A stretch of DNA of 50,744 bases from Oerskovia merdavium (lineage in GTDB: Bacteria > Actinomycetota > Actinomycetes > Actinomycetales > Cellulomonadaceae): NCBI RefSeq assembly GCF_014836755.1, contig NZ_JACSQF010000023.1:13137-63880 (forward strand), given 5' to 3'. The position numbers and the translations under genes were made by a program. Below the pieces are notes generated by a model. That model did not search any database. It saw only the letters and a program-made list of their open reading frames with translations, and was not told where the DNA came from. Shown here piece by piece: positions 40,766-48,658 of this stretch (positions are counted from its first letter, which is position 1; every line of letters starts with the position of its first letter).

Positions 40766-41646
40766 CGGAGCCGAGAACTGTTGGACGGGTCGGTCGTGAG
40801 GTGCCGCAAGGCCACGAAGGGTCGCCGTCCTCGCGGGACGGCACGCCGGCCGCCGGTGGGCGTGCGCGGGCGGCCCACGGGCTCGACGCCTCGCGCGTCT
40901 CGTGGTCGGCCGGGTCGCAGCTCATCCTCGACGGGGTGGACTGCACGGCTCCCCCGGGAGCGGTGAGCGGGCTGCTGGGCCCCAACGGGTCCGGGAAGTC
41001 GACGCTGCTGCGCGCGATCGCGGCCACCCAGGTCCCGGACGCGGGCGAGGTCCGGTTCGACGGCGAGGACCTGCTGCGCATGCCGCGACGGCGTCGGGCG
41101 CGCAGGCTGGCCCTCGTCGAGCAGGACGCGTCGACCGACCTGCCCGTCTCGGTGCTCGACGCCGTGCTGCTCGGCAGGATCCCGCACCGCTCGCTCCTGG
41201 CGGGCGACACCGACGCCGACCGCGCGATGGCCCACGAGGCGCTCGTGCGGGCCGGGGTCGAGGAGCTGGCCGAACGGTCGCTCGCCACGTTGTCGGGAGG
41301 CGAGCGCCAGCGCGTGCACATGGCCCGCGCCCTCGCCCAGGACCCCGCGCTGCTGCTCCTCGACGAACCCACGAACCACCTCGACATCGCGGCCCAGCTC
41401 GCCGCCATGACCGTGCTGCGCAAGCTCGCCGCGGACGGCGTGACGGTCCTCGCGGCCCTGCACGACCTCAACCTCGCGGCGGCCTCGTGCGACCACGTCG
41501 TGGTCCTGTCGGGCGGGCGGGTCGTCGCGGCGGGTGACGTGCGGGACGTGCTGGTCCCGGACGTGATCGAGCCCGTGTACGGGGTGCGGTGCGACGTGCT
41601 GGCCCACCCCCGGACCGGTCGGCCCGTGCTGGTCTTCGGGGACTGA
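40762..41646 (+). CDS. ABC transporter ATP-binding protein, proposed F420-0 importer
   Basis: 294 residues. A charged, Gly/Ala-rich lead of about 45 residues precedes a standard importer ATPase: GLLGPNGSGKSTLLRAI (Walker A), Q-loop in LALVEQDASTDLPVSV, LSGGERQRVHMARALAQDPALLLLDEPTNHLD (signature and Walker B) and LAALHDLNLAAASCD (switch His). GTG start overlaps the permease stop (GTGA). Last gene of the three-gene operon; matches the FecE/BtuD group and would be TIGR03873 in the F420-0 cassette. Confidence 0.92.
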   Translation: MTEPRTVGRVGREVPQGHEGSPSSRDGTPAAGGRARAAHGLDASRVSWSAGSQLILDGVDCTAPPGAVSGLLGPNGSGKSTLLRAIAATQVPDAGEVRFDGEDLLRMPRRRRARRLALVEQDASTDLPVSVLDAVLLGRIPHRSLLAGDTDADRAMAHEALVRAGVEELAERSLATLSGGERQRVHMARALAQDPALLLLDEPTNHLDIAAQLAAMTVLRKLAADGVTVLAALHDLNLAAASCDHVVVLSGGRVVAAGDVRDVLVPDVIEPVYGVRCDVLAHPRTGRPVLVFGD

Positions 41647-41659
41647 CGGCCTGTGGCGT

Positions 41660-41679
41660 CGCCGGGTGCATGCCCGGCG
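41660..41679 (+). terminator. Transporter operon terminator
   Basis: 7-bp stem (cgccggg/cccggcg) with TGCATG loop, 13 bases after the ATPase stop. It partly overlaps repeat element A. Confidence 0.5.
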
Positions 41680-41757
41680 CCGAGCATGCGGTTGGCGTTC
41701 GCATCCGGGCCGTTTCGGACGCCAACCGTATGCTCGTCCGACGGCAACCACATGCTC
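41674..41757 (-). repeat. Three-unit dispersed repeat, copy A
   Basis: Read on the minus strand: unit 1 GAGCATGTGGTTGCCGTC (41740-41757), 4 bases, unit 2 (41719-41735, GAGCATACGGTTGGCGT), 20 bases, then inverted unit 3 (41682-41698), followed by GGCGCCGGG. Units 2 and 3 are complementary with one mismatch over 17 bases. Lies between two convergent genes. Confidence 0.7.
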
Positions 41758-41818
41758 GGCCCGGGCGCCTGCACGACCCCAGATCCCACCCGCGCCGGGG
41801 TACGAGGAGCGACGAGCC

Positions 41819-42241
41819 CTAGAACCCGCGCAGCCGTTCGGGCGTGAAGCGCAGCACCTCGGAGTACGCGGCGTGGAACTCCTCGGGACTCATCCCGAGG
41901 CCGGCGATCGGCGACCGGTACTTGGTGTCGTAGCGCGTGCGCTCCTCGGCGCTCAGGCCTGCCGGGTCCAGGACGAGCCGGCCCGTGAGCACCTGCACGT
42001 CCCATCCTGCAGGCGTCGAGTTGAGGTGCAGCGCGGCGCGCGGGTTGGCGGCGGCGTTGCGCAGCTTGGCCTTGCGCGGCTCGCTGAGGATCACGACGTC
42101 GTCCCCGCTGCGGATCTGCCACACCGGCGTCGGCTGCGGGGTCCCGGCGGGGTCGACCGTCGTGAGCCAGACGACGAGGTCCGCGTCGAGCCGTTCGGCG
42201 GCGCGCGCACCCAGCGTGGTCGTCGTGTCGATCGCGGTCAC
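41819..42241 (-). CDS. F420-dependent (Rv3369-type) pyridoxamine-5'-phosphate-oxidase-like protein
   Basis: 140-residue split-barrel flavin/deazaflavin reductase of the PNPOx-like fold. It contains LTTVDPAGTPQPTPVWQIRSGDDVVILSEPRKAKLRNAAANPRAALHLNST, which fits TIGR03667 (F420-dependent, Rv3369 family). F420 rather than FMN is an inference from family and from the neighbouring F420 genes. GTG start with GAGG about 5 bases upstream. It is 7 bases after the CoA-binding gene, so the two form a unit. No signal peptide. Confidence 0.83.
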   Translation of the reverse strand: MTAIDTTTTLGARAAERLDADLVVWLTTVDPAGTPQPTPVWQIRSGDDVVILSEPRKAKLRNAAANPRAALHLNSTPAGWDVQVLTGRLVLDPAGLSAEERTRYDTKYRSPIAGLGMSPEEFHAAYSEVLRFTPERLRGF

Positions 42242-42248
42242 GTCGGCC

Positions 42249-42686
42249 TCAGCCCTGCGCCGGGACGGCGGGCCCCAGGCGCGGCCACTCGATCGCGGGG
42301 CAGCGGTCCATGACCATGTCCAGCCCGGCGTCGCGGACCCGCGCGAACGCGTCCTCGTCGACCACGTCGAGCTGGAACCAGACGGCCCCGGCCCCGATCT
42401 CGACGGCCTGGTCCGCGACGGCCCCCGCGAGGTCGGAGCGAACGAACACGTCCACGACGTCGACCGGGAACGGGATCTCGGCGAGCGACGCGTAGCCCTG
42501 CTCGCCGTGCACGGTCTCGGCTGCCGGGTGGACCGGCACGATGCGCTTGCCCTGCCGCTGGAGCAGCCGGGCCACCCCGTACGCGGCGCGAGCCGAGTTG
42601 TTCGACAGCCCGACCACGGCCCACGTCTCGGTGTCCGCGAGGACCTTGCGGATGACGGCGTCCTCGCCCCAGCTCTTGTCGCTCAT
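42249..42686 (-). CDS. CoA-binding domain protein (YccU-like)
   Basis: 145-residue Rossmann-fold protein of the CoA_binding_2 family: TWAVVGLSNNSARAAYGVARLLQRQGKRIVPVHP, then IPFPVDVVDVFVRSDLAGAVADQAVEIGAGAVWFQLDVVDEDAF and MVMDRCPAIEW. Family members bind CoA or nucleotides; the biological role is unknown. Whole length matches the family. Weak ribosome binding site before the ATG. Linked to the downstream F420-type reductase gene. Confidence 0.88.
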   Translation of the reverse strand: MSDKSWGEDAVIRKVLADTETWAVVGLSNNSARAAYGVARLLQRQGKRIVPVHPAAETVHGEQGYASLAEIPFPVDVVDVFVRSDLAGAVADQAVEIGAGAVWFQLDVVDEDAFARVRDAGLDMVMDRCPAIEWPRLGPAVPAQG

Positions 42687-42744
42687 ATCGGGGCAACCCC
42701 GGCGCGGGGGCGACTATTCCGGGCTGCGCCCTCCTCCGGTGCGC

Positions 42745-42801
42745 TGAGTGCGGAGTTCTTGCGCGACTCGCCGGGCGTGTCTCACAAGATCTCCGCACTC
42801 A
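42745..42801. repeat. 17-bp inverted repeat downstream of the DUF1772 gene
   Basis: Arms tgagtgcggagttcttg (42745-42761) and caagatctccgcactca (42785-42801) match with one mismatch around a 23-base loop. It may be a terminator for the DUF1772 gene. It has the arm and loop size of the dispersed repeats but a different sequence. Confidence 0.6.
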
Positions 42802-42829
42802 CCGTTCATCCGCTGCCCGACGGCGCCGC

Positions 42830-43411
42830 TCACCCCGCGAGTCGCGCCACGAGTCCCAGGACCAGGAGCAGGGCGGCCACCCCGCACGCCAGGGTCCGCA
42901 CGTGGTTCCAGGCGACCCAACGCCCGAGGAAGACCGCCCAGACCTGGTCTCGCTCCGCCGTCGGGCCGGTGGGACGAACCCTCGTCCCACCCGACCCTCG
43001 ACCTGAGGGTGAGGCTTCGGCCGACCGTCGAACCGAGGTCGAGACCGCCGCTTCCGCAGCCTCGAGGCGGTCGTTGAGCGGGACGTTGACGGCCGCCGTC
43101 ACCCCGATGCCGCCCACGAGATAGACGACGGCCGCGGCCAGGACGAGCACCGCGCCCGCCTCGCCCAGCCGCGTCGCGGCCACGACGCCGAGGACCGTCA
43201 CGAGCCCGGTCGTCACGAACAGGAGAGACCCGAACGGGGCCCTGGTCGCGTGGCGGTTGATCGAGGCCATCGCGGTCGCTCCGACGTCGGGCGCGACCGA
43301 GCGCAGGCCCGCCATGACGAAGGTCGAGAACGCGAAGAGAACTCCCCCGACGAGCGCGCAGCCGACCGATGCCACCACGACCGCCCACCCGAGAGCCCCG
43401 AGCGCGCCCAT
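42830..43411 (-). CDS. DUF1772 family membrane protein
   Basis: 193 residues, about four transmembrane helices: GWAVVVASVGCALVGGVLFAFSTFVMAGL, FGSLLFVTTGLVTVLGVVAAT, AVLVLAAAVVYLVGGIGVTAAVNVPLNDRL and VRTLACGVAALLLVLGLVARL. The NVPLND motif and FLGRWVAWNHVRTL are typical of DUF1772, some members of which are anthrone oxygenase-like. An insert of about 35 residues rich in Ser/Arg/Gly lies between the two. ATG shares bases with the stop of the upstream gene (TGATG), so it is coupled to it. Confidence 0.85.
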   Translation of the reverse strand: MGALGALGWAVVVASVGCALVGGVLFAFSTFVMAGLRSVAPDVGATAMASINRHATRAPFGSLLFVTTGLVTVLGVVAATRLGEAGAVLVLAAAVVYLVGGIGVTAAVNVPLNDRLEAAEAAVSTSVRRSAEASPSGRGSGGTRVRPTGPTAERDQVWAVFLGRWVAWNHVRTLACGVAALLLVLGLVARLAG

Positions 43412-44319
43412 CAGTGCACCCCGTCCAGGACGGCAGGCGGAGCCTGTGGGGAGCCGACCGGCGCCCAGGCCGCGGCCTCACGACGCGCGAACTCGGCGAA
43501 GTCGCGCGGCTCGCGAGCGAGCGCCTCGTGCACGCCGTGCGTCAGGTGCTCGTTGCGTCCGTCGAGGACCTCCTCGAACAGGTAGCGGGTGAGCTCGACG
43601 GCGTCGGCTGGGACGCCCGCGGCGGTCAGGCCGGCCGCGAACTCGTCGCCCGTGACGGTCACGAGCCGGACGTCCCGGCCGCTCGCCGCCCCGACCTCCG
43701 CGAGCGCCTCGCCGAAGGTCAGCAGCCGGGGCCCCGTGAGCTCGTAGACCCGGCCCGCGTGCCCGTCCTCGGTGAGCGCCGCGAACGCGACGTCGGCCAC
43801 GTCCTCGAGGTCGACGAACGGCTCGACCACGGCGTCGACGGGGAGCGGGACCACTCCGTCGAGCACGGGGTCCAGCAGGAAGCTCTCGCTGAAGTTCTGC
43901 GCGAACCACGCGCAACGCACGACCGTGCGAGCGGGGAACGCCTCGGCGACGAGCTCCTCGGCACGCTGCGCCTCGGGCTCGCCGCGACCCGAGAGCAGCA
44001 CGAGGCGCTGCACGCCCACGCGCGCCGCGACCCGGGCGAAGTCGGCGACGACCTCGGGAACTCCCGGGGCCGCGAGGTCCGGTGCGACCGCGACGTAGGC
44101 GGCGTCGGCCCCCTCGAGCGCCGGCGCCCAGGTCGCGGGATCGTCCCAGTCGAGCCTGGTCTCGGTGCTCCGCGAGACAGGGCGGACGGCGATGCCCCGC
44201 GCTGCGAGGCGGGCCGCGACACGGCGCCCGGTCTTGCCCGTCGCGCCGACGACGGCGACGAGGGACGGGAGACCGGCGTCGCCGGTCGGGGTGGTGGGGT
44301 GCGGCTGGTTCGTGGTCAT
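43411..44319 (-). CDS. NmrA/NAD(P)H-binding atypical SDR protein
   Basis: 302-residue Rossmann protein. LVAVVGATGKTGRRVAARLAARGIAVRPVSRS is the GxxGxxG NAD(P)-binding site; the rest resembles NmrA-like quinone or NAD(P)H-sensing reductases (VQRLVLLSGRGEPEA, CAWFAQNFSESFLLDPVLDG, GRVYELTGPRLLTFGEALAEVG). No catalytic YxxxK is seen, as usual for this class. AGGAG upstream of the ATG. Divergent from the AraC gene with 135 bases between, and translationally coupled to the DUF1772 gene; the AraC protein probably regulates both. Confidence 0.88.
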   Translation of the reverse strand: MTTNQPHPTTPTGDAGLPSLVAVVGATGKTGRRVAARLAARGIAVRPVSRSTETRLDWDDPATWAPALEGADAAYVAVAPDLAAPGVPEVVADFARVAARVGVQRLVLLSGRGEPEAQRAEELVAEAFPARTVVRCAWFAQNFSESFLLDPVLDGVVPLPVDAVVEPFVDLEDVADVAFAALTEDGHAGRVYELTGPRLLTFGEALAEVGAASGRDVRLVTVTGDEFAAGLTAAGVPADAVELTRYLFEEVLDGRNEHLTHGVHEALAREPRDFAEFARREAAAWAPVGSPQAPPAVLDGVH

Positions 44320-44390
44320 GGCGGTCTCCTGTGATCGGTCGTCCGTGCTGTGGTTCGAGTCAACCGGTCTCCGGCGAGACGTTCCATGGT

Positions 44391-44417
44391 CGAACGGCTC
44401 GGGAGCATGTCCGTTCG
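44391..44417. promoter_or_regulatory. Candidate AraC operator
   Basis: Perfect 7-bp inverted half-sites CGAACGG (44391-44397) and CCGTTCG (44411-44417), 13 bases apart, in the divergent region between the reductase and araC-type genes. Confidence 0.4.
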
Positions 44418-44454
44418 TCTTCCGTCGAGGACGCGGGGGGCGTACCGTCGTGGC

Positions 44455-45420
44455 ATGGACGCTGTCGCCGGACTCCTCGACGGCCCCCGCGCGCGGGGCG
44501 CCTTCCTGCTGCGCTCGCTCCTCGCGCCGCCGTGGTCGATGCGCATCGAGGACGAGGCGCCCCTGACGCTCGTGCCCGTCGTGCGCGGGTCGGTCTGGAT
44601 CGGGATGGACGCCGGCCTGCAGCCCCACGAACCACCGCTCGAGGCACACCTCGACGAGGGCGACGTCGCGCTCGTGCGCGGGCCCCGCCACTACACCGTG
44701 GCCGACTCCCCCGGGACGGCGCCGCAGATGGTGAGCGACGCCGTCGGTGCCTGCCGGGCGGTCGGCGACGCCCCCTCTCCCCTCGTCGACCTCGGTGTCC
44801 GGACCTGGGGCAACGACCCCGACGGGCCGACCGTGCTGCTGACCGGGACCTACCCGCTCGACGGCGAGGTGGGCGGCCGGCTGCTGAGCGTGCTGCCCCC
44901 GCTCGTGGTGCTGCGCCGCGGGGACCTCGACGCCGACCTCGTCTCGTTGCTCGCGCGCGAGGTCTCGCAGGACCGGCCCGGCCAGGAGGCCGTGCTCGAC
45001 CGGTTGCTCGACGTCCTGCTCATCGGCGCGCTGCGCGCATGGCTCGACCTCGGCGAGGCCCCGGGGTGGTACCGCGCGGACGCCGACCCGGTGGTCGGGC
45101 ACGCGTTGCGACTCATGCACCACGACCCGGCCAGGGCCTGGACGGTCGAGTCGCTCGCGCGGACCGTCGGGCTGTCACGGGCCGCGTTCTCGCGGCGCTT
45201 CACCGAGCTCGTGGGCGAGCCGCCCATGGGCTACCTCACCGGGTGGCGCCTGACGCTCGCGGCCGACCTGCTGCTGGAGCCGGGGGCGACCGTCGGCTCG
45301 GTGGCGCGGCAGGTCGGGTACGGGACGCCGTTCGCGCTGAGCGCCGCGTTCACACGCGTGCGGGGCATGAGCCCGACGGCGCACAGGGAGCGGGTGGGGG
45401 CGGGGTCAGGGGCGGCCTGA
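44455..45420 (+). CDS. AraC family transcriptional regulator (cupin_6 type)
   Basis: 321 residues. The N-terminal half is an AraC-type cupin sensor (SMRIEDEAPLTLVPVVRGSVWIGM, LDEGDVALVRGPRHYTVAD). Two helix-turn-helix motifs form the C-terminal DNA-binding domain: WTVESLARTVGLSRAAFSRRFTELVGEPPMGYLTGWRLTLAADLLL and VGSVARQVGYGTPFALSAAFTRVRGMSP. Start MDAVAGLLDGPRARG matches the usual family start; upstream is a GGGGGG run. Divergent from the reductase/DUF1772 pair, its likely target. Confidence 0.92.
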   Translation: MDAVAGLLDGPRARGAFLLRSLLAPPWSMRIEDEAPLTLVPVVRGSVWIGMDAGLQPHEPPLEAHLDEGDVALVRGPRHYTVADSPGTAPQMVSDAVGACRAVGDAPSPLVDLGVRTWGNDPDGPTVLLTGTYPLDGEVGGRLLSVLPPLVVLRRGDLDADLVSLLAREVSQDRPGQEAVLDRLLDVLLIGALRAWLDLGEAPGWYRADADPVVGHALRLMHHDPARAWTVESLARTVGLSRAAFSRRFTELVGEPPMGYLTGWRLTLAADLLLEPGATVGSVARQVGYGTPFALSAAFTRVRGMSPTAHRERVGAGSGAA

Positions 45421-45452
45421 CGGTCCGCCTCGCCGTGGCGCCGGAGGGCTCC

Positions 45453-45514
45453 TCGGGTGCCGAGCACGAGGTTGCGGTCGATATGGCGAGCTTGACGATC
45501 GCAAGCTCGTGCTC
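45453..45514 (-). repeat. Dispersed repeat, copy C (two clear units)
   Basis: Unit at 45462-45479 (+ strand GAGCACGAGGTTGCGGTC) and inverted partner at 45498-45514, 18 bases apart, matching 15 of 17. In the minus orientation the second unit is followed by GGCACCCGAGG, as in the other copies. A degenerate third unit may lie at 45515-45532. Between the AraC and DUF385 genes. Confidence 0.65.
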
Positions 45515-45572
45515 GACGAGCGGCTCGCCGTCGGGCACCGTGCGGTGGCCGCACCTCGCCCGCGCGCGCACC

Positions 45573-45995
45573 ATGGCTGACATGCCCATCCCGCACCTGG
45601 TCACCCGGACCAACAAGCGGTACGTCAACCCGCTCGTGCTCCGCGTGTCGTCGCGCGTGCCGCCGTTCGCGACGGTCCACCATCGCGGGCGGCGCAGCGG
45701 ACGGCCGTTCACGACCCCCGTCCTGGCGTTCCGCGAACCCCCGTCGGCCACGTCCCCGCGCGAGGTCCGCGTGATCATCGCGCTGACCTATGGATCAGAC
45801 GTCGACTGGCTCAAGAACGTCGAGGCGGCCGGGCTGTTCGGGCTGACACGAGGTGGGCGCGGCTACGTCGTCGACGACCTGCGACGGCTGCACGGTGACG
45901 CCGGTCTCCGGCTCGTGCCGGGCGCGATCAGGGTCGCCCTGCGGGGGCTGCGCGTGGACGAGCTCCTCGACGGACGGGTGGGGCCGCCCCGCTGA
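45573..45995 (+). CDS. Deazaflavin (F420)-dependent nitroreductase family protein (DUF385/Ddn-like)
   Basis: 140 residues of the split-barrel Ddn/DUF385 family, members of which use reduced F420 to reduce quinones or nitro compounds. The family pattern VHHRGRRSGRPFTTPVLAF, IIALTYGSDVDWLKNVEAAG and LTRGGRGYVVDD is intact. Two ATGs (45573, 45582) are possible; neither has a ribosome binding site. Cofactor use is inferred from the family. Followed 52 bases later by the HhH-GPD gene. Confidence 0.85.
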   Translation: MADMPIPHLVTRTNKRYVNPLVLRVSSRVPPFATVHHRGRRSGRPFTTPVLAFREPPSATSPREVRVIIALTYGSDVDWLKNVEAAGLFGLTRGGRGYVVDDLRRLHGDAGLRLVPGAIRVALRGLRVDELLDGRVGPPR

Positions 45996-46047
45996 GCGGC
46001 AGCCCGGCGCGACGGCGTCCGCGCGACCCGGCTGCCATGATGGGGAC

Positions 46048-46653
46048 ATGGCACACGACCTGTGGTTCACCGGCGACCCGGAAGCCGACGCGCTGCTGTC
46101 CATCGACCCGTTCGCACTGCTCATCGGCATGCTCCTCGACCAGCAGGTCACCATGGAGTCGGCGTTCGCGGGGCCTCTCAAGATCTCCCAGCGCATGGGC
46201 GGGTTCGACGTGCACCGCATCGCCTCCGCCGAGCCCGAGGCGTTCGCCGCGATGGCCGCCACTCCCCCGGCGATCCACCGCTACCCGGGCTCCATGGCGG
46301 GCCGCGTGCAGGCCGTGGCCCAGGTCGTCGACGAGCAGTACGACGGCGACGTCACGCGCCTGTGGACCGACCCCGGACCCGACGGCGGCGCCCCGGACGG
46401 GGCGCTCGTCCTCAAGCGGCTCAAGGCGCTGCCCGGCTTCGGGGAGCAGAAGGCGAAGATCTTCCTCGCGCTCCTCGGCAAGCAGTACGGCGTCCAGCCC
46501 GAGGGGTGGCACGAGGCTGCGGGGGCCTACGGCGAGGAAGGTTCGCGACGCTCGATCGCCGACGTCGTCGACCAGCACTCGCTCGACCAGGTGCGCGAGA
46601 CCAAGAAGGCGGCCAAGGCCGCGGCGAAGGCCGAACGGGCCGCCAAGGGCTGA
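46048..46653 (+). CDS. HhH-GPD-type base excision repair protein
   Basis: 201 residues. The HhH motif LKALPGFGEQKAKIFLALLGKQYG (about residues 117-140) and the surrounding helices place it in the endonuclease III/AlkA superfamily, matching the actinobacterial group TIGR03252. The conserved start DLWFTGDPEADALLSIDPFALLIGMLLDQQVTMESAFAGP is family-typical. The catalytic Asp found in classical glycosylases is not evident, so activity is uncertain. A Lys/Ala-rich tail ends the protein. ATG preceded by GGGG. Confidence 0.87.
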   Translation: MAHDLWFTGDPEADALLSIDPFALLIGMLLDQQVTMESAFAGPLKISQRMGGFDVHRIASAEPEAFAAMAATPPAIHRYPGSMAGRVQAVAQVVDEQYDGDVTRLWTDPGPDGGAPDGALVLKRLKALPGFGEQKAKIFLALLGKQYGVQPEGWHEAAGAYGEEGSRRSIADVVDQHSLDQVRETKKAAKAAAKAERAAKG

Positions 46654-46981
46654 CGCTCCGGCACGCCACCGGGACGCTCCCGGCCCGGTGCATGTTCGCT
46701 CGCATGCCAGTCTTCTCCGTCCAGGGTCGAGCAACCGGCTCTCCGCCCAGTTCGAGCAAGGACGCGGCACCACGTCCGGGGTGGTGGGATCGGTGCGAGC
46801 ACGCGCGGCGCACCGCCGTGCAGGGCCTCGAGCTGCGACCGGCTGACGTCGTCGTCACGTCACGGCGGACGTCGAGGCCGCCTGAACGGGTCGACGACCA
46901 CGCCGCCCACAGCGAGCCGGTCCCGCCGCGCGTAGCGTGAGGAGAGGGCGCGGCCCCGTGCCCGTTCCCGAGGAGGACCTC
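46654..46981. other. Intergenic region after the HhH-GPD gene
   Basis: 328 bases without a convincing gene. A hairpin (caccggg/cccggtg, 46667-46690, 10-base loop) is a likely terminator. The rest shows no recognisable coding remnant. The ribosome binding site GAGGAGG for the next gene closes it. Confidence 0.45.
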
Positions 46982-47347
46982 ATGGCTCACGGCGACATCA
47001 CGCACATCGACATCCCCGTCGGCGACACCGACCGCGCCCGCGCGTTCTACAGCGGGCTGTTCGGCTGGGACATCGCCGAGGCGCCCGGTTTCGAGGGATA
47101 CCCCATGTGGCGGGCCCCCAACCAGATCAGCGGTGGTGGCCTCGCCCCCCGCGAGGAAGGGTTCACGAGCCCGCGCAGCTACGTCGAGGTCGACTCGATC
47201 GAGGATTCGCTCGCCCAGGTCGAGGCCCTCGGCGGCAAGGTGCTCATGGGCAGGTCGCAGATCAGCCCGACGAGCTGGTGGGCGGTCTTCGAGGACCTCG
47301 ACGGGAACCGGCTGGGGCTCTACGAGGGCGTCACCACGATGGACTGA
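46982..47347 (+). CDS. VOC family (glyoxalase/bleomycin-resistance fold) protein
   Basis: 121-residue vicinal-oxygen-chelate protein with the paired beta-alpha-beta-beta-beta fold: DITHIDIPVGDTDRARAFYSGLFGWDI, SYVEVDSIEDSLAQVEALGGKV and SWWAVFEDLDGNRLGLYEG. Metal-ligand residues (His in the first motif, Glu in the last) are present. Reaction unknown. GAGGAGG 5 bases before the ATG is the best ribosome binding site in the accessory region. Convergent with the next gene, 10 bases apart. Confidence 0.9.
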   Translation: MAHGDITHIDIPVGDTDRARAFYSGLFGWDIAEAPGFEGYPMWRAPNQISGGGLAPREEGFTSPRSYVEVDSIEDSLAQVEALGGKVLMGRSQISPTSWWAVFEDLDGNRLGLYEGVTTMD

Positions 47348-47360
47348 GCCTGGCGGCTCA
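47345..47360. terminator. Hairpin formed by two convergent stop codons
   Basis: TGAGCC-TGGC-GGCTCA: a perfect 6-bp stem that contains the TGA of the VOC gene and, on the other strand, the TGA of the next gene. Short, but symmetrical for both transcripts. Confidence 0.45.
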
Positions 47361-47747
47361 CGCCGACCCGAACACGATCGTCCCGTCGGGGTCGCTCGCA
47401 CGTCGCGGCCGCAGCCGTGCCGGCGCCGGCCACGGCAGCTCGTGCCGGACGACCGGCGCGTCGATCGCCCCGAAGTCGTCGGTCTGGACCACGACGCGCT
47501 CGGGCGTGACCTCGACGAGCCGGACGCGGACCGGGTCCGGACCCTCGCCGTCGAGCATCCAGACGTCGGCGAGCCAGGACAGGCCGGTGCCGTCGAGAGC
47601 CTCCTCGGCGTCGAGCCAGTCGACCGGGCCGGTGAGGTCGTGCCCCAGCAACGAGACGGCGACCCAGGCATCGCCGTCGGGCCGGATCCACCCGATGTGG
47701 TCACGGTCCTCGGGGCGGCGGTGCGGGATCCAGGAGGCAGGCAGCAT
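47358..47747 (-). CDS. Hypothetical protein (129 residues)
   Basis: Not recognised. About 129 residues with a coherent soluble composition: IGWIRPDGDAWVAVSLLGHDLTGPVDWLDAEEALDGTGLSWLADVWMLDGEGPDPVRVRLVEVTPERVVVQTDDFGA. Codon use and Trp/Asp-rich strands look real. The ATG at 47747 (MLPASWIPHRR) is chosen because further upstream the frame enters the repeat region; its ribosome binding site is weak. Convergent with the VOC gene. Confidence 0.72.
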   Translation of the reverse strand: MLPASWIPHRRPEDRDHIGWIRPDGDAWVAVSLLGHDLTGPVDWLDAEEALDGTGLSWLADVWMLDGEGPDPVRVRLVEVTPERVVVQTDDFGAIDAPVVRHELPWPAPARLRPRRASDPDGTIVFGSA

Positions 47748-47854
47748 CCAGGAACGATAGCGAGCGGCCGGCCGATCCGCCCAGGAGATTCGGCCCGGCG
47801 CCGGCTCCGGATGACGGAAGCCGTCGCCCTGGAGCGTCCAGCCCTGGCGGCCAC

Positions 47855-47939
47855 GACCATGCGGTTGGCGTCCCACGAGCATGCGGTCGGCGTCCCTCAG
47901 GGCCCGAGATGCGACGACAACCGCATGCTCGGCACCCGG
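47855..47939 (+). repeat. Three-unit dispersed repeat, copy B
   Basis: Unit 1 GACCATGCGGTTGGCGTC (47855-47872), 4 bases, unit 2 GAGCATGCGGTCGGCGTC (47877-47894), 18 bases, inverted unit 3 (47913-47930), then GGCACCCGG. Unit 3 read backwards is GAGCATGCGGTTGTCGTC. Confidence 0.75.
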
Positions 47940-48000
47940 GTCTCGGGCCCCGAGGCACCAGAGTGAGCGAGTCGTCAGAGGCGGCGAGGCACCAGAGCCA

Positions 48001-48036
48001 CCGGGGTCACCGGGGTCACCGGGGTCACCGGGGTCA
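48001..48036. repeat. Tandem 9-bp repeat (ccggggtca x4)
   Basis: Four exact head-to-tail copies. The last TCA is the stop codon of the gene at 48034-48552, so the array starts exactly at that stop. Confidence 0.9.
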
Positions 48037-48552
48037 CCCATCACCACCGGCGCTGCGGCTGCGGGTCGTCGCCGCGACGTGCCGGATCCGGCGGGTCCGA
48101 CCGCCCCCGGCGAGGGCGTCCAGGACGTCGGCACGGGTCGCGGAGCTCGCCGCGCGCAGCTGGAGCCAGTCGGACCAGCCGTCGACGCCCAGACCTTCGT
48201 CCGCACGTCGGAGCCCATCGCCCACCGCAGCGACGGCACCCGACACCGACTCGAGGATCTCCAGCTCCGCGGCCCGCCGGGCCACGAAGTCGGCCACCGT
48301 CCATTCGCTCGTGAGGGCCACCCAGCGTTCCCTGTCTACCGACGGGACACGCTCGAGAGCGGCGACGACCACCCCGCTCGCCATGACCTGGTCGTCGTCC
48401 TCGGCGACGGCAGCGGCCACCAGGTCGTGCAGGCCCCGCCCGAGCGCCTGGTCGTAGAGCGCCCACCGGACGTGCTCGTCGGCCAGGTCGCCGGAGAACG
48501 CGAGTTCCCGTGCGAGCCGGCTCAGGTCCGCTGCTGGTTCCTGCCTCGTCAT
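48034..48552 (-). CDS. Hypothetical protein (172 residues)
   Basis: Not recognised. A helical, soluble protein: LSRLARELAFSGDLADEHVRWALYDQALGRGLHDLVAAAVAEDDDQVMASGVVVAALERVPSVDRERWVALTSEWTVADFVARRAAELEILESV. The last 30 residues are Arg/Gly/Thr-rich. It resembles helical-repeat proteins in composition only. The ATG at 48552 has GAGGGTGGGCGG upstream. Stops in a tandem repeat, so its C-terminus could change with array length. No partner evident. Confidence 0.7.
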   Translation of the reverse strand: MTRQEPAADLSRLARELAFSGDLADEHVRWALYDQALGRGLHDLVAAAVAEDDDQVMASGVVVAALERVPSVDRERWVALTSEWTVADFVARRAAELEILESVSGAVAAVGDGLRRADEGLGVDGWSDWLQLRAASSATRADVLDALAGGGRTRRIRHVAATTRSRSAGGDG

Positions 48553-48574
48553 CCGCCCACCCTCGGCTTTCATC

Positions 48575-48658
48575 GAGCACGACCTTCCGTCCAGTCGACC
48601 ATGACCTTGCGGTCACCAAGCCCCTCAGAAGGACCGCAACCTCGTTCTCGGCACCCGG
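48575..48658 (+). repeat. Three-unit dispersed repeat, copy D
   Basis: Unit 1 GAGCACGACCTTCCGTC (48575-48591), 5 bases, unit 2 GACCATGACCTTGCGGTC (48597-48614), 17 bases, inverted unit 3 (48632-48649; read backwards GAGAACGAGGTTGCGGTC), then GGCACCCGG. Between the hypothetical gene and cofE. Confidence 0.7.

Follow-up and report, generated by a model that had tools for sequence, protein, structure and literature searches.

The 50,744-nucleotide (nt) stretch of Oerskovia merdavium DNA analysed here as a whole (the window; contig NZ_JACSQF010000023.1) carries four intergenic copies, A to D, of a repeated element that is built of two opposing 18-nt arms and a 17–18-nt loop, giving a two-arm hairpin of 53–54 nt, and that in copies A, B and D has a further unit outside one arm (Table 1). 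Copy A lies between an ABC ATPase gene (plus strand, ending at 41646) and a convergent PNPOx gene (minus strand, ending at 41819), and copy C between an AraC-type gene (plus strand, ending at 45420) and a plus-strand gene without Pfam match; copy D lies behind the stop codon (48695) of an F420-0:gamma-glutamyl ligase gene and before the start of the gene at 48034-48573. When the window was scanned with a position weight matrix (PWM) of the unit, 10 of the 11 units of copies A–D scored 19–29.5, while the rest of the window reached at most 14.7 and the reversed window, as control, at most 14.3; unit 1 of copy D fell below the threshold of 9. A simple unit pattern with one mismatch allowed had 13 matches in the window versus 0.46 expected. 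Thus, the four copies that an earlier note on this DNA had described exist where it had placed them, and so does the layout it gave for A, B and D, namely a unit, 4 nt, a second unit (22-nt period), a loop of 18, 18 and 17 nt, respectively, and an inverted unit, followed by GGCACC in copies B and D and GGCGCC in copy A. In the present coordinates, unit 1 is counted as 22 nt long and directly abuts unit 2. Copy C consists of the last two units, as the earlier note had it, because 22 nt present in the relative G004, which retains the third unit, are missing from the window strain at that point; G006 and G002 also have a third unit.

Table 1. Copies of the repeated element in the window and their units (positions count from the first letter of the window)
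Feature	Position	Strand	Basis or context
Copy A, three-unit, subtype I (CATG)	41676..41757	-	between ABC ATPase and convergent PNPOx genes
A unit 1, 22 nt, extra unit	41736..41757	-	
A unit 2, 18-nt arm	41718..41735	-	PWM
A unit 3, opposing 18-nt arm	41682..41699	+	flank GGCGCC at 41676-41681
Copy C, two-unit, subtype II (CACG)	45456..45514	-	
C unit 3	45462..45479	+	flank GGTGCC at 45456-45461
C unit 2	45497..45514	-	PWM
Copy B, three-unit, subtype I	47855..47936	+	flanked by minus-strand genes 47358-47747 and 48034-48573
B unit 1, 22 nt	47855..47876	+	
B unit 2	47877..47894	+	PWM
B unit 3, then GGCACC	47913..47930	-	PWM
Copy D, three-unit, subtype II	48575..48655	+	flanked by two minus-strand genes
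D unit 1, 22 nt, GAGCACGACCTT plus tail	48575..48596	+	place and first 12 nt
D unit 2	48597..48614	+	PWM
D unit 3, then GGCACC	48632..48649	-	PWM

The four copies belong to a real dispersed intergenic family. A covariance model (R1), built from 100 copies of which 3 came from Cellulosimicrobium-type records, gave at least 150 strand matches in the genome of the window (G000; 4.49 Mb, 46 contigs), that is at least 76 sites with one partial match at a contig edge, and found at least 73 sites in the single-contig genome G001 and at least 72 in G120, a genome of genus g8, all copy numbers being lower bounds. The name Cellulosimicrobium-type for G120 is an inference, drawn from one flanking protein that shares 99% identity with a protein of Cellulosimicrobium funkei. 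Exact matches to the subtype I 13-mer GAGCATGNGGTTG numbered 40 in the genome versus 1 for the reversed pattern, and subtype II units within two mismatches of GAGCACGAGGTTGCGGTC numbered 97 versus 4 for the control. By sequence pattern, all seven genomes of the genus examined were rich in the unit, and the palindrome pattern matched records of Oerskovia enterophila, douganii, rustica and turbata. The restriction to the genus that the sequence pattern suggested was rejected, since the covariance model finds carriers in other genera and families. At an E value of 0.001, 97 of 200 genomes of the family matched, many of them with only one or two weak matches, seventeen g8 genomes had at least 22 to at least 25 matches each, and 83 further family genomes had none; at 1e-6, 26 of 297 genomes of the order matched, several of them outside the family. 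More copies than the four of the earlier note exist, and the family extends to Cellulosimicrobium-type genomes and one further genus. Those distant matches that were inspected are two-armed palindromes with other sequences, and similar palindromes recur in family f13 of the order (L230, L233, L235 (about 1501-1570); arm like CCGGGGGTGNGGTTGACGTCGG), which suggests that repeated hairpins of this kind are more widespread in the order. The element is also present on contigs (L094, L126) recorded as Sphaerisporangium cinnabarinum ATCC 31213; this record is probably misnamed.

The copies occupy a characteristic place behind genes, as judged with a purpose-made codon-usage gene finder. Among the 66 elements of G000 with usable flanks, 37 lay between tandem, 22 between convergent and 6 between divergent genes and 1 inside a gene, so that convergent gaps were enriched over the gene pairs of the sampled stretches (23 of 309 convergent; Fisher p = 1.4e-7), a background that is one block in six genomes and hence not independent; at 71 sites of G120, the counts were 30 convergent, 28 tandem, 7 divergent and 6 inside genes. 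The median distance from the stop codon was 40 nt (quartiles 20–67, 174 distances); for G000 taken by itself it was 48 nt, and for G120 it was 26 nt (88 distances). Across gaps of at least 60 nt in 20 stretches, of which 4 were chosen as copy-rich and 16 represent a single block in six genomes, the element was carried by 10 of 24 convergent, 16 of 179 tandem and 1 of 35 divergent gaps. In the size range of 60–320 nt, the element is present in 9 convergent gaps, and some other hairpin window below −35 kcal/mol per 60 nt in 11 of the 13 convergent gaps that lack it, as compared with 2 of 23 element-free divergent gaps. Since element-free convergent gaps mostly have another strong hairpin, the element looks like one of several ways of filling the same slot. 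The earlier note had seen no copy in 41 kb of conserved DNA, which holds for the window by PWM scan and also for 15 stretches of five relatives chosen to cover the same block, apart from lone, partnerless unit-like matches (one, plus a second at a looser cut-off); this lack is less surprising for a slot filler, as just one further convergent gap, of 27 nt, precedes copy A in the window. Its placing of the copies near accessory genes did not generalise, because copies also lie behind phosphoglucose isomerase and malate synthase genes and, in the Cellulosimicrobium-type genome, behind an adenylosuccinate lyase gene. A canonical intrinsic terminator was rejected as a classification: a GC-rich hairpin soon after the stop codon is present, but the U-tract is absent.

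The geometry of the element is rigid. Among the G000 copies first collected, head-to-head unit starts were 35 nt apart in 28 cases and 36 in 21, with 57 or 58 in 19 (where the extra unit is counted) and other spacings in 5, and same-strand units were 22 nt apart in 22 of 26 cases. In a set of 135 elements (132 from Oerskovia, 66 of them from G000, and 3 Cellulosimicrobium-type), a 12-nt half unit stood exactly 22 nt outside an arm in 70 (69 Oerskovia, 1 other) and at offsets of 18–21 and 23–26 in none; no element had it on both sides, although about 9 would be expected were the sides independent. Subtype II elements have a unit 1 that is like unit 2 in its first 12 nt and differs in its tail (CCGYGCGGTC), while in subtype I most of the unit is repeated in unit 1. 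The same half unit was found at 22 nt in 50 of the 71 analysed G120 sites (one of the 72 being at the edge of its locus), one of them with both sides, making 51 side matches at 22 nt and at most 2 at any other offset from 12 to 45. From a mixed set of 30 loci of other genera, 3 whose arm does not begin with GA were dropped; 12 of the remaining 27 carry the extra unit, all in g8 and g12, and g8 loci without it also exist. Given its presence across genera, the 22-nt extra unit probably predates the split of these genera.

The two arms change together. In the 100-copy alignment, 85.6% of the cells in 27 pairs were paired, and 17 of the 27 pairs had changed on both sides, in 245 cells versus 116 in shuffles and 27–89 when the structure was slid as a control. 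The loop is also partly paired, with at least five of six outer loop pairs in 56 of the 135 elements versus 28 with shuffled partners, and copies A and C folded far better as single strands than their shuffles (z −3.93 and −3.91). The earlier note had proposed that the units of a copy are kept complementary and resemble each other more than those of other copies. This likeness is real but uneven, being well borne out for units 2 and 3 and weak for unit 1 in subtype II: unit 2 tracked unit 3 in 69 of 85 informative cells overall, in 17 of 25 when subtype II was taken alone and in 4 of 13 for subtype I, while unit 1 did so in 58 of 85, largely because of the split into two subtypes, and within subtype II in 6 of 25 (57 of 2000 shuffles were as high). 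The constrained pairing in the major subtype (II) is the hairpin of units 2 and 3; in subtype I, unit 1 does as well as unit 2 (6 of 13), on few cells.

These counts bear directly on the RNA switch or small RNA that the earlier note had offered, in which unit 3 could pair with either of the other two units, so that two hairpins would compete. Units 1 and 2 do share the half-unit motif in 70 of 135 elements, the best folds of some copies (copy A, locus L001) pair unit 1 with unit 3, units 1 and 2 track unit 3 about equally often within subtype I, and unit 1 tends to lie on the far side of the hairpin, standing after rather than before it in 31 versus 15 cases (orthologues counted repeatedly), 14 versus 10 in the window genome and 15 versus 7 in G120 (p = 0.13). 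On the other side, 65 of the 135 elements have no recognisable unit 1, and a switch between two equal hairpins finds no support in the major subtype, where unit 2 follows unit 3 nearly three times as often as unit 1. An ordered switch needs one order relative to transcription, and the orientation is mixed, so that together with the weak tracking of unit 1 in subtype II the ordered switch was rejected. Nor did any Pfam family recur among 96 proteins flanking the copies. At the Rfam gathering score, the window had no match and 10 further loci had only a thiamine pyrophosphate (TPP) riboswitch, away from the element (L230, 2757-2861); a known RNA family was accordingly rejected, there being no Rfam match at the elements. 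With so little in its favour, we regard a switch or small-RNA family as very improbable.

If the hairpin were selected as RNA, G-U pairs might be preferred to A-C in the sense strand, yet strand-specific selection through G-U pairs was rejected for lack of a clear asymmetry (30 versus 23 at tandem and 14 versus 8 at convergent sites), and so there is no sign that RNA, not DNA, is selected. This suits a DNA-level binding site, in which a protein would read half-sites (GASMAYG...) spaced 22 bp in direct and 35/36 bp in inverted orientation, with dialects that follow the protein and with a role in chromosome organisation, gyrase action, uptake or recombination. The zero counts at offsets next to 22 nt, the consistent one-sidedness (70 of 70), the 51 matches at 22 nt in G120, and lineage dialects that keep the geometry all point the same way. 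However, descent by copying gives fixed spacing too, strong arm pairing and a partly paired loop are superfluous for a plain site, the position behind stop codons suits transcription better, and the proposal comes without a candidate protein; we therefore think a plain binding site improbable. A related and still speculative idea, which we also hold unlikely though a little less so, is a Micrococcales 3′-end system, in which a trans-acting factor would read the fixed geometry (18-nt arms, a 17–18-nt loop and an optional half-site 22 nt outside one arm only) at dozens of gene ends, its dialect drifting with the factor from lineage to lineage and its geometry and pairing being preserved.

Comparison among relatives indicates that the sites are largely conserved between species. 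Loci named here were chosen for bearing the pattern, a bias that the window block alone escapes. Within the block that is orthologous to the window, elements are present at the A and C sites of five relatives and a degraded one at the C site of G002, often with a change of subtype. At the A site, G000, G004 and G003 have subtype I and G001, G005 and G006 a two-armed palindrome of the GAGAACGGGGTTGAGGTC type; at the C site, G000, G004, G006 and G002 have subtype II and G001, G003 and G005 subtype I. As these groupings conflict, some sites have exchanged their element by recombination, conversion or replacement. G001, G005 and G006 lack the PNPOx-family gene beside copy A (41819-42241) at this site but retain, between the genes on either side, an element of another subtype. 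Overall, 105 of 121 orthologous comparisons (65 query elements, counted from both sides) were filled; of the 16 unfilled, 13 had a degraded or partial copy, 1 was missed by merged clustering (L110) and 2 represent one empty site (L025). Units differed less between orthologous than non-orthologous elements in G000–G004 (1.79 versus 3.04), G000–G006 (3.05 versus 3.86), G000–O. rustica (2.67 versus 4.10) and G006–O. rustica (0.60 versus 1.79), with G004–G006 as the exception (2.80 versus 2.62). With orthologous units on average the closer ones in all pairs but the last, strict concerted evolution was rejected, descent being visible and the dialect only partial; orthologous units of G000 and G006 nevertheless differ as much as units within one genome (3.05 and 3.04). 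In G120, 3 sites have the same genes on both flanks as an Oerskovia site and a further nine on one flank (raw counts), a tenth one-flank site matching only a g8 record; among the shared genes are malate synthase and adenylosuccinate lyase, with both flanks kept, and phosphoglucose isomerase, with one. In the sequences compared, each lineage uses its own version of the element, with the geometry kept.

These data also weigh on the possibility of a selfish element, REPIN-like or resembling a miniature inverted-repeat transposable element (MITE), which would have no host function, be moved by some enzyme and be tolerated mainly behind genes. About 70 similar copies per genome in three genomes and lineage-specific subtypes are what such an element would leave, and extra copies stand beside existing ones in G000 and G004, with none seen in G006 or O. 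rustica. At L025 (1438-1513), a subtype I element lies inside the end of a predicted G000 coding gene and two relatives lack it; this is the only clear empty site, and it shows no clean target duplication or junctions. Copies are clustered on the G001 chromosome, where 29 gaps are below 10 kb (mean 10.9, maximum 21 in 5000 random placements), a clustering that may follow convergent-gene density. The sites are, however, mostly common across species, and with G120 flanks kept as well, movement looks rare now. No mover was found either: PF01797, the domain reported for the tyrosine transposases of the RAYT type (PMC2817692), was absent from 7 of 7 Oerskovia genomes and 17 of 17 other carriers, in a search whose positive controls matched in 5 of 14 genomes, so that a Y1/RAYT transposase as mover is ruled out as far as PF01797 shows (0 of 24). 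A resident helper gene was likewise rejected, no Pfam family occurring in more than 3 of 96 flanking proteins (96 of the 116 listed). The earlier note's idea of an element like the repetitive extragenic palindromic (REP) sequences, spread by a transposase, is hence borne out in place and hairpin and contradicted by the failure of three typical single units to fold, by the missing Y1/RAYT gene and by the lack of a recurrent neighbour. We consider a purely selfish element doubtful.

We favour, with a probability of roughly 55%, a dispersed, REP-like family of U-less 3′-end hairpins that sits in the terminator slot and was once copied around and is now mostly fixed, a reading drawn from sequence comparison. 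The element would be a hairpin with complementary 18-nt arms, a partly self-paired loop and clamps like GGTGCC/GGCACC, which would form during transcription behind the stop codon and at convergent sites could serve both strands. It might either stop RNA polymerase without a U-tract or form and protect the stable 3′ end that Rho-type termination and trimming by exonucleases leave behind. Copies would have spread earlier by some copying process and would now mostly be held at their sites. In the simplest view, the third unit would repeat part of one arm over 22 nt and come and go by repeat slippage; such 22-nt steps are indicated by copy C, which lacks 22 nt present in G004, and by the four units of G001 at that site. 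The third unit may offer a second chance at the hairpin or a protein half-site.

Several observations weigh against this favoured reading. A terminator role leaves unexplained why dozens of sites share one 18-nt sequence. No U-tract was found after the hairpin, T making up 0–9% at positions 1–8 of 174 tails. Some sites are in the wrong place for a gene end, 6 of 66 in G000 being divergent and, among the 71 of G120, 7 divergent and 6 inside genes, and tandem gaps without the element often hold a hairpin below −35 as well (72 of 150, versus 10 of 15 with it). For copies B and D, folding is not better than that of shuffled sequences (z −0.47 and −1.18), and G-U has no clear advantage over A-C on the sense strand. 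Palindromes can moreover self-correct their arms during replication, so that covariation alone does not prove selection.

Two other repeats were noted in the window. One, at 42742-42804, is a dispersed palindrome of about 63 nt that is unrelated to the element (CGCTGAGTGCGGAGTTCTTG.../...CAAGATCTCCGCACTCACCG) and has many 88–94% matches on both strands in Oerskovia genomes; as it is missing at the orthologous site in G002, G003, G005 and G006, it may be a miniature element that moves. The other, at 47996-48036 between copy B and the following gene, is a short tandem array with a 9-nt unit like ACCGGGGTC.

Known systems offer partial parallels. REP sequences, their bacterial interspersed mosaic elements (BIMEs) and REPINs with RAYT are high-copy extragenic inverted pairs that form hairpins in species-specific families, mostly downstream of genes and between convergent or co-directional ones (PMC3116915, PMC2817692, PMC3733652). 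The present family shares the extragenic, many-copy inverted pairs and the hairpins, but its 18-nt unit is not itself a palindrome (three typical units, z +0.28, +0.80 and +0.98), its consensus has no GTAG/GTGG (GT(A/G)G) head and is flanked by G, G/A, C, N, C/G, C, no Y1_Tnp gene accompanies it, its sites are largely conserved across species, and it has a one-sided extra unit at 22 nt. CGTC-tagged REPs have no dedicated transposase either, and are 20–40 bp long with loops of 4–5 bp and an unpaired CGTC tag; the passages cited report them from five phyla, Actinobacteria not among them (PMC3733652). Subtype I units also end in CGTC, which here, by contrast, lies inside the paired arm (pairs 23-48 to 26-45) of a 53–54-nt hairpin. 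Paired DNA uptake sequences of Neisseria and Pasteurellaceae act as terminators enriched between convergent genes, and are about 9–11 nt long in generally at least 1,000 copies (PMC1852404), with dialects between species (PMC3630211). Dispersal of a conserved sequence, inverted pairs between convergent genes and dialects are common to both, whereas here there are at least 72–76 sites per genome (three genomes), an 18-nt unit, a fixed 17–18-nt loop, units mostly paired at fixed spacing among the loci examined, and no U-rich tail. In Streptomyces clavuligerus, U-less "HS-U-lack" transcript ends have been described in comparison with I-shaped ones (PMC8269248), strong GC-rich 3′ hairpins without U-tract in a high-GC actinobacterium as here; those are a structural class of mapped RNA ends, while ours is a repeated family with fixed geometry, known from sequence. 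Since the REP head, palindromic unit and transposase are lacking and the copy number is not that of uptake sequences, the family is not classed as a REP member; by analogy it would belong with dispersed 3′-end hairpin repeats and may work like REP/REPIN and paired uptake-sequence terminators. Among open-licence PMC papers, no description of such repeats in Oerskovia or Cellulosimicrobium was found.

The family would thus be an actinobacterial counterpart of REP/REPIN and paired uptake-sequence terminators, minus the Y1 transposase, with two traits that the cited passages do not describe for those systems, a one-sided 22-nt extra unit kept between genera and sites that outlast sequence change. 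It provides a concrete set of sites for testing U-less termination in high-GC bacteria, and the same sites allow the origin of shared hairpin sequences behind unrelated genes to be tested.

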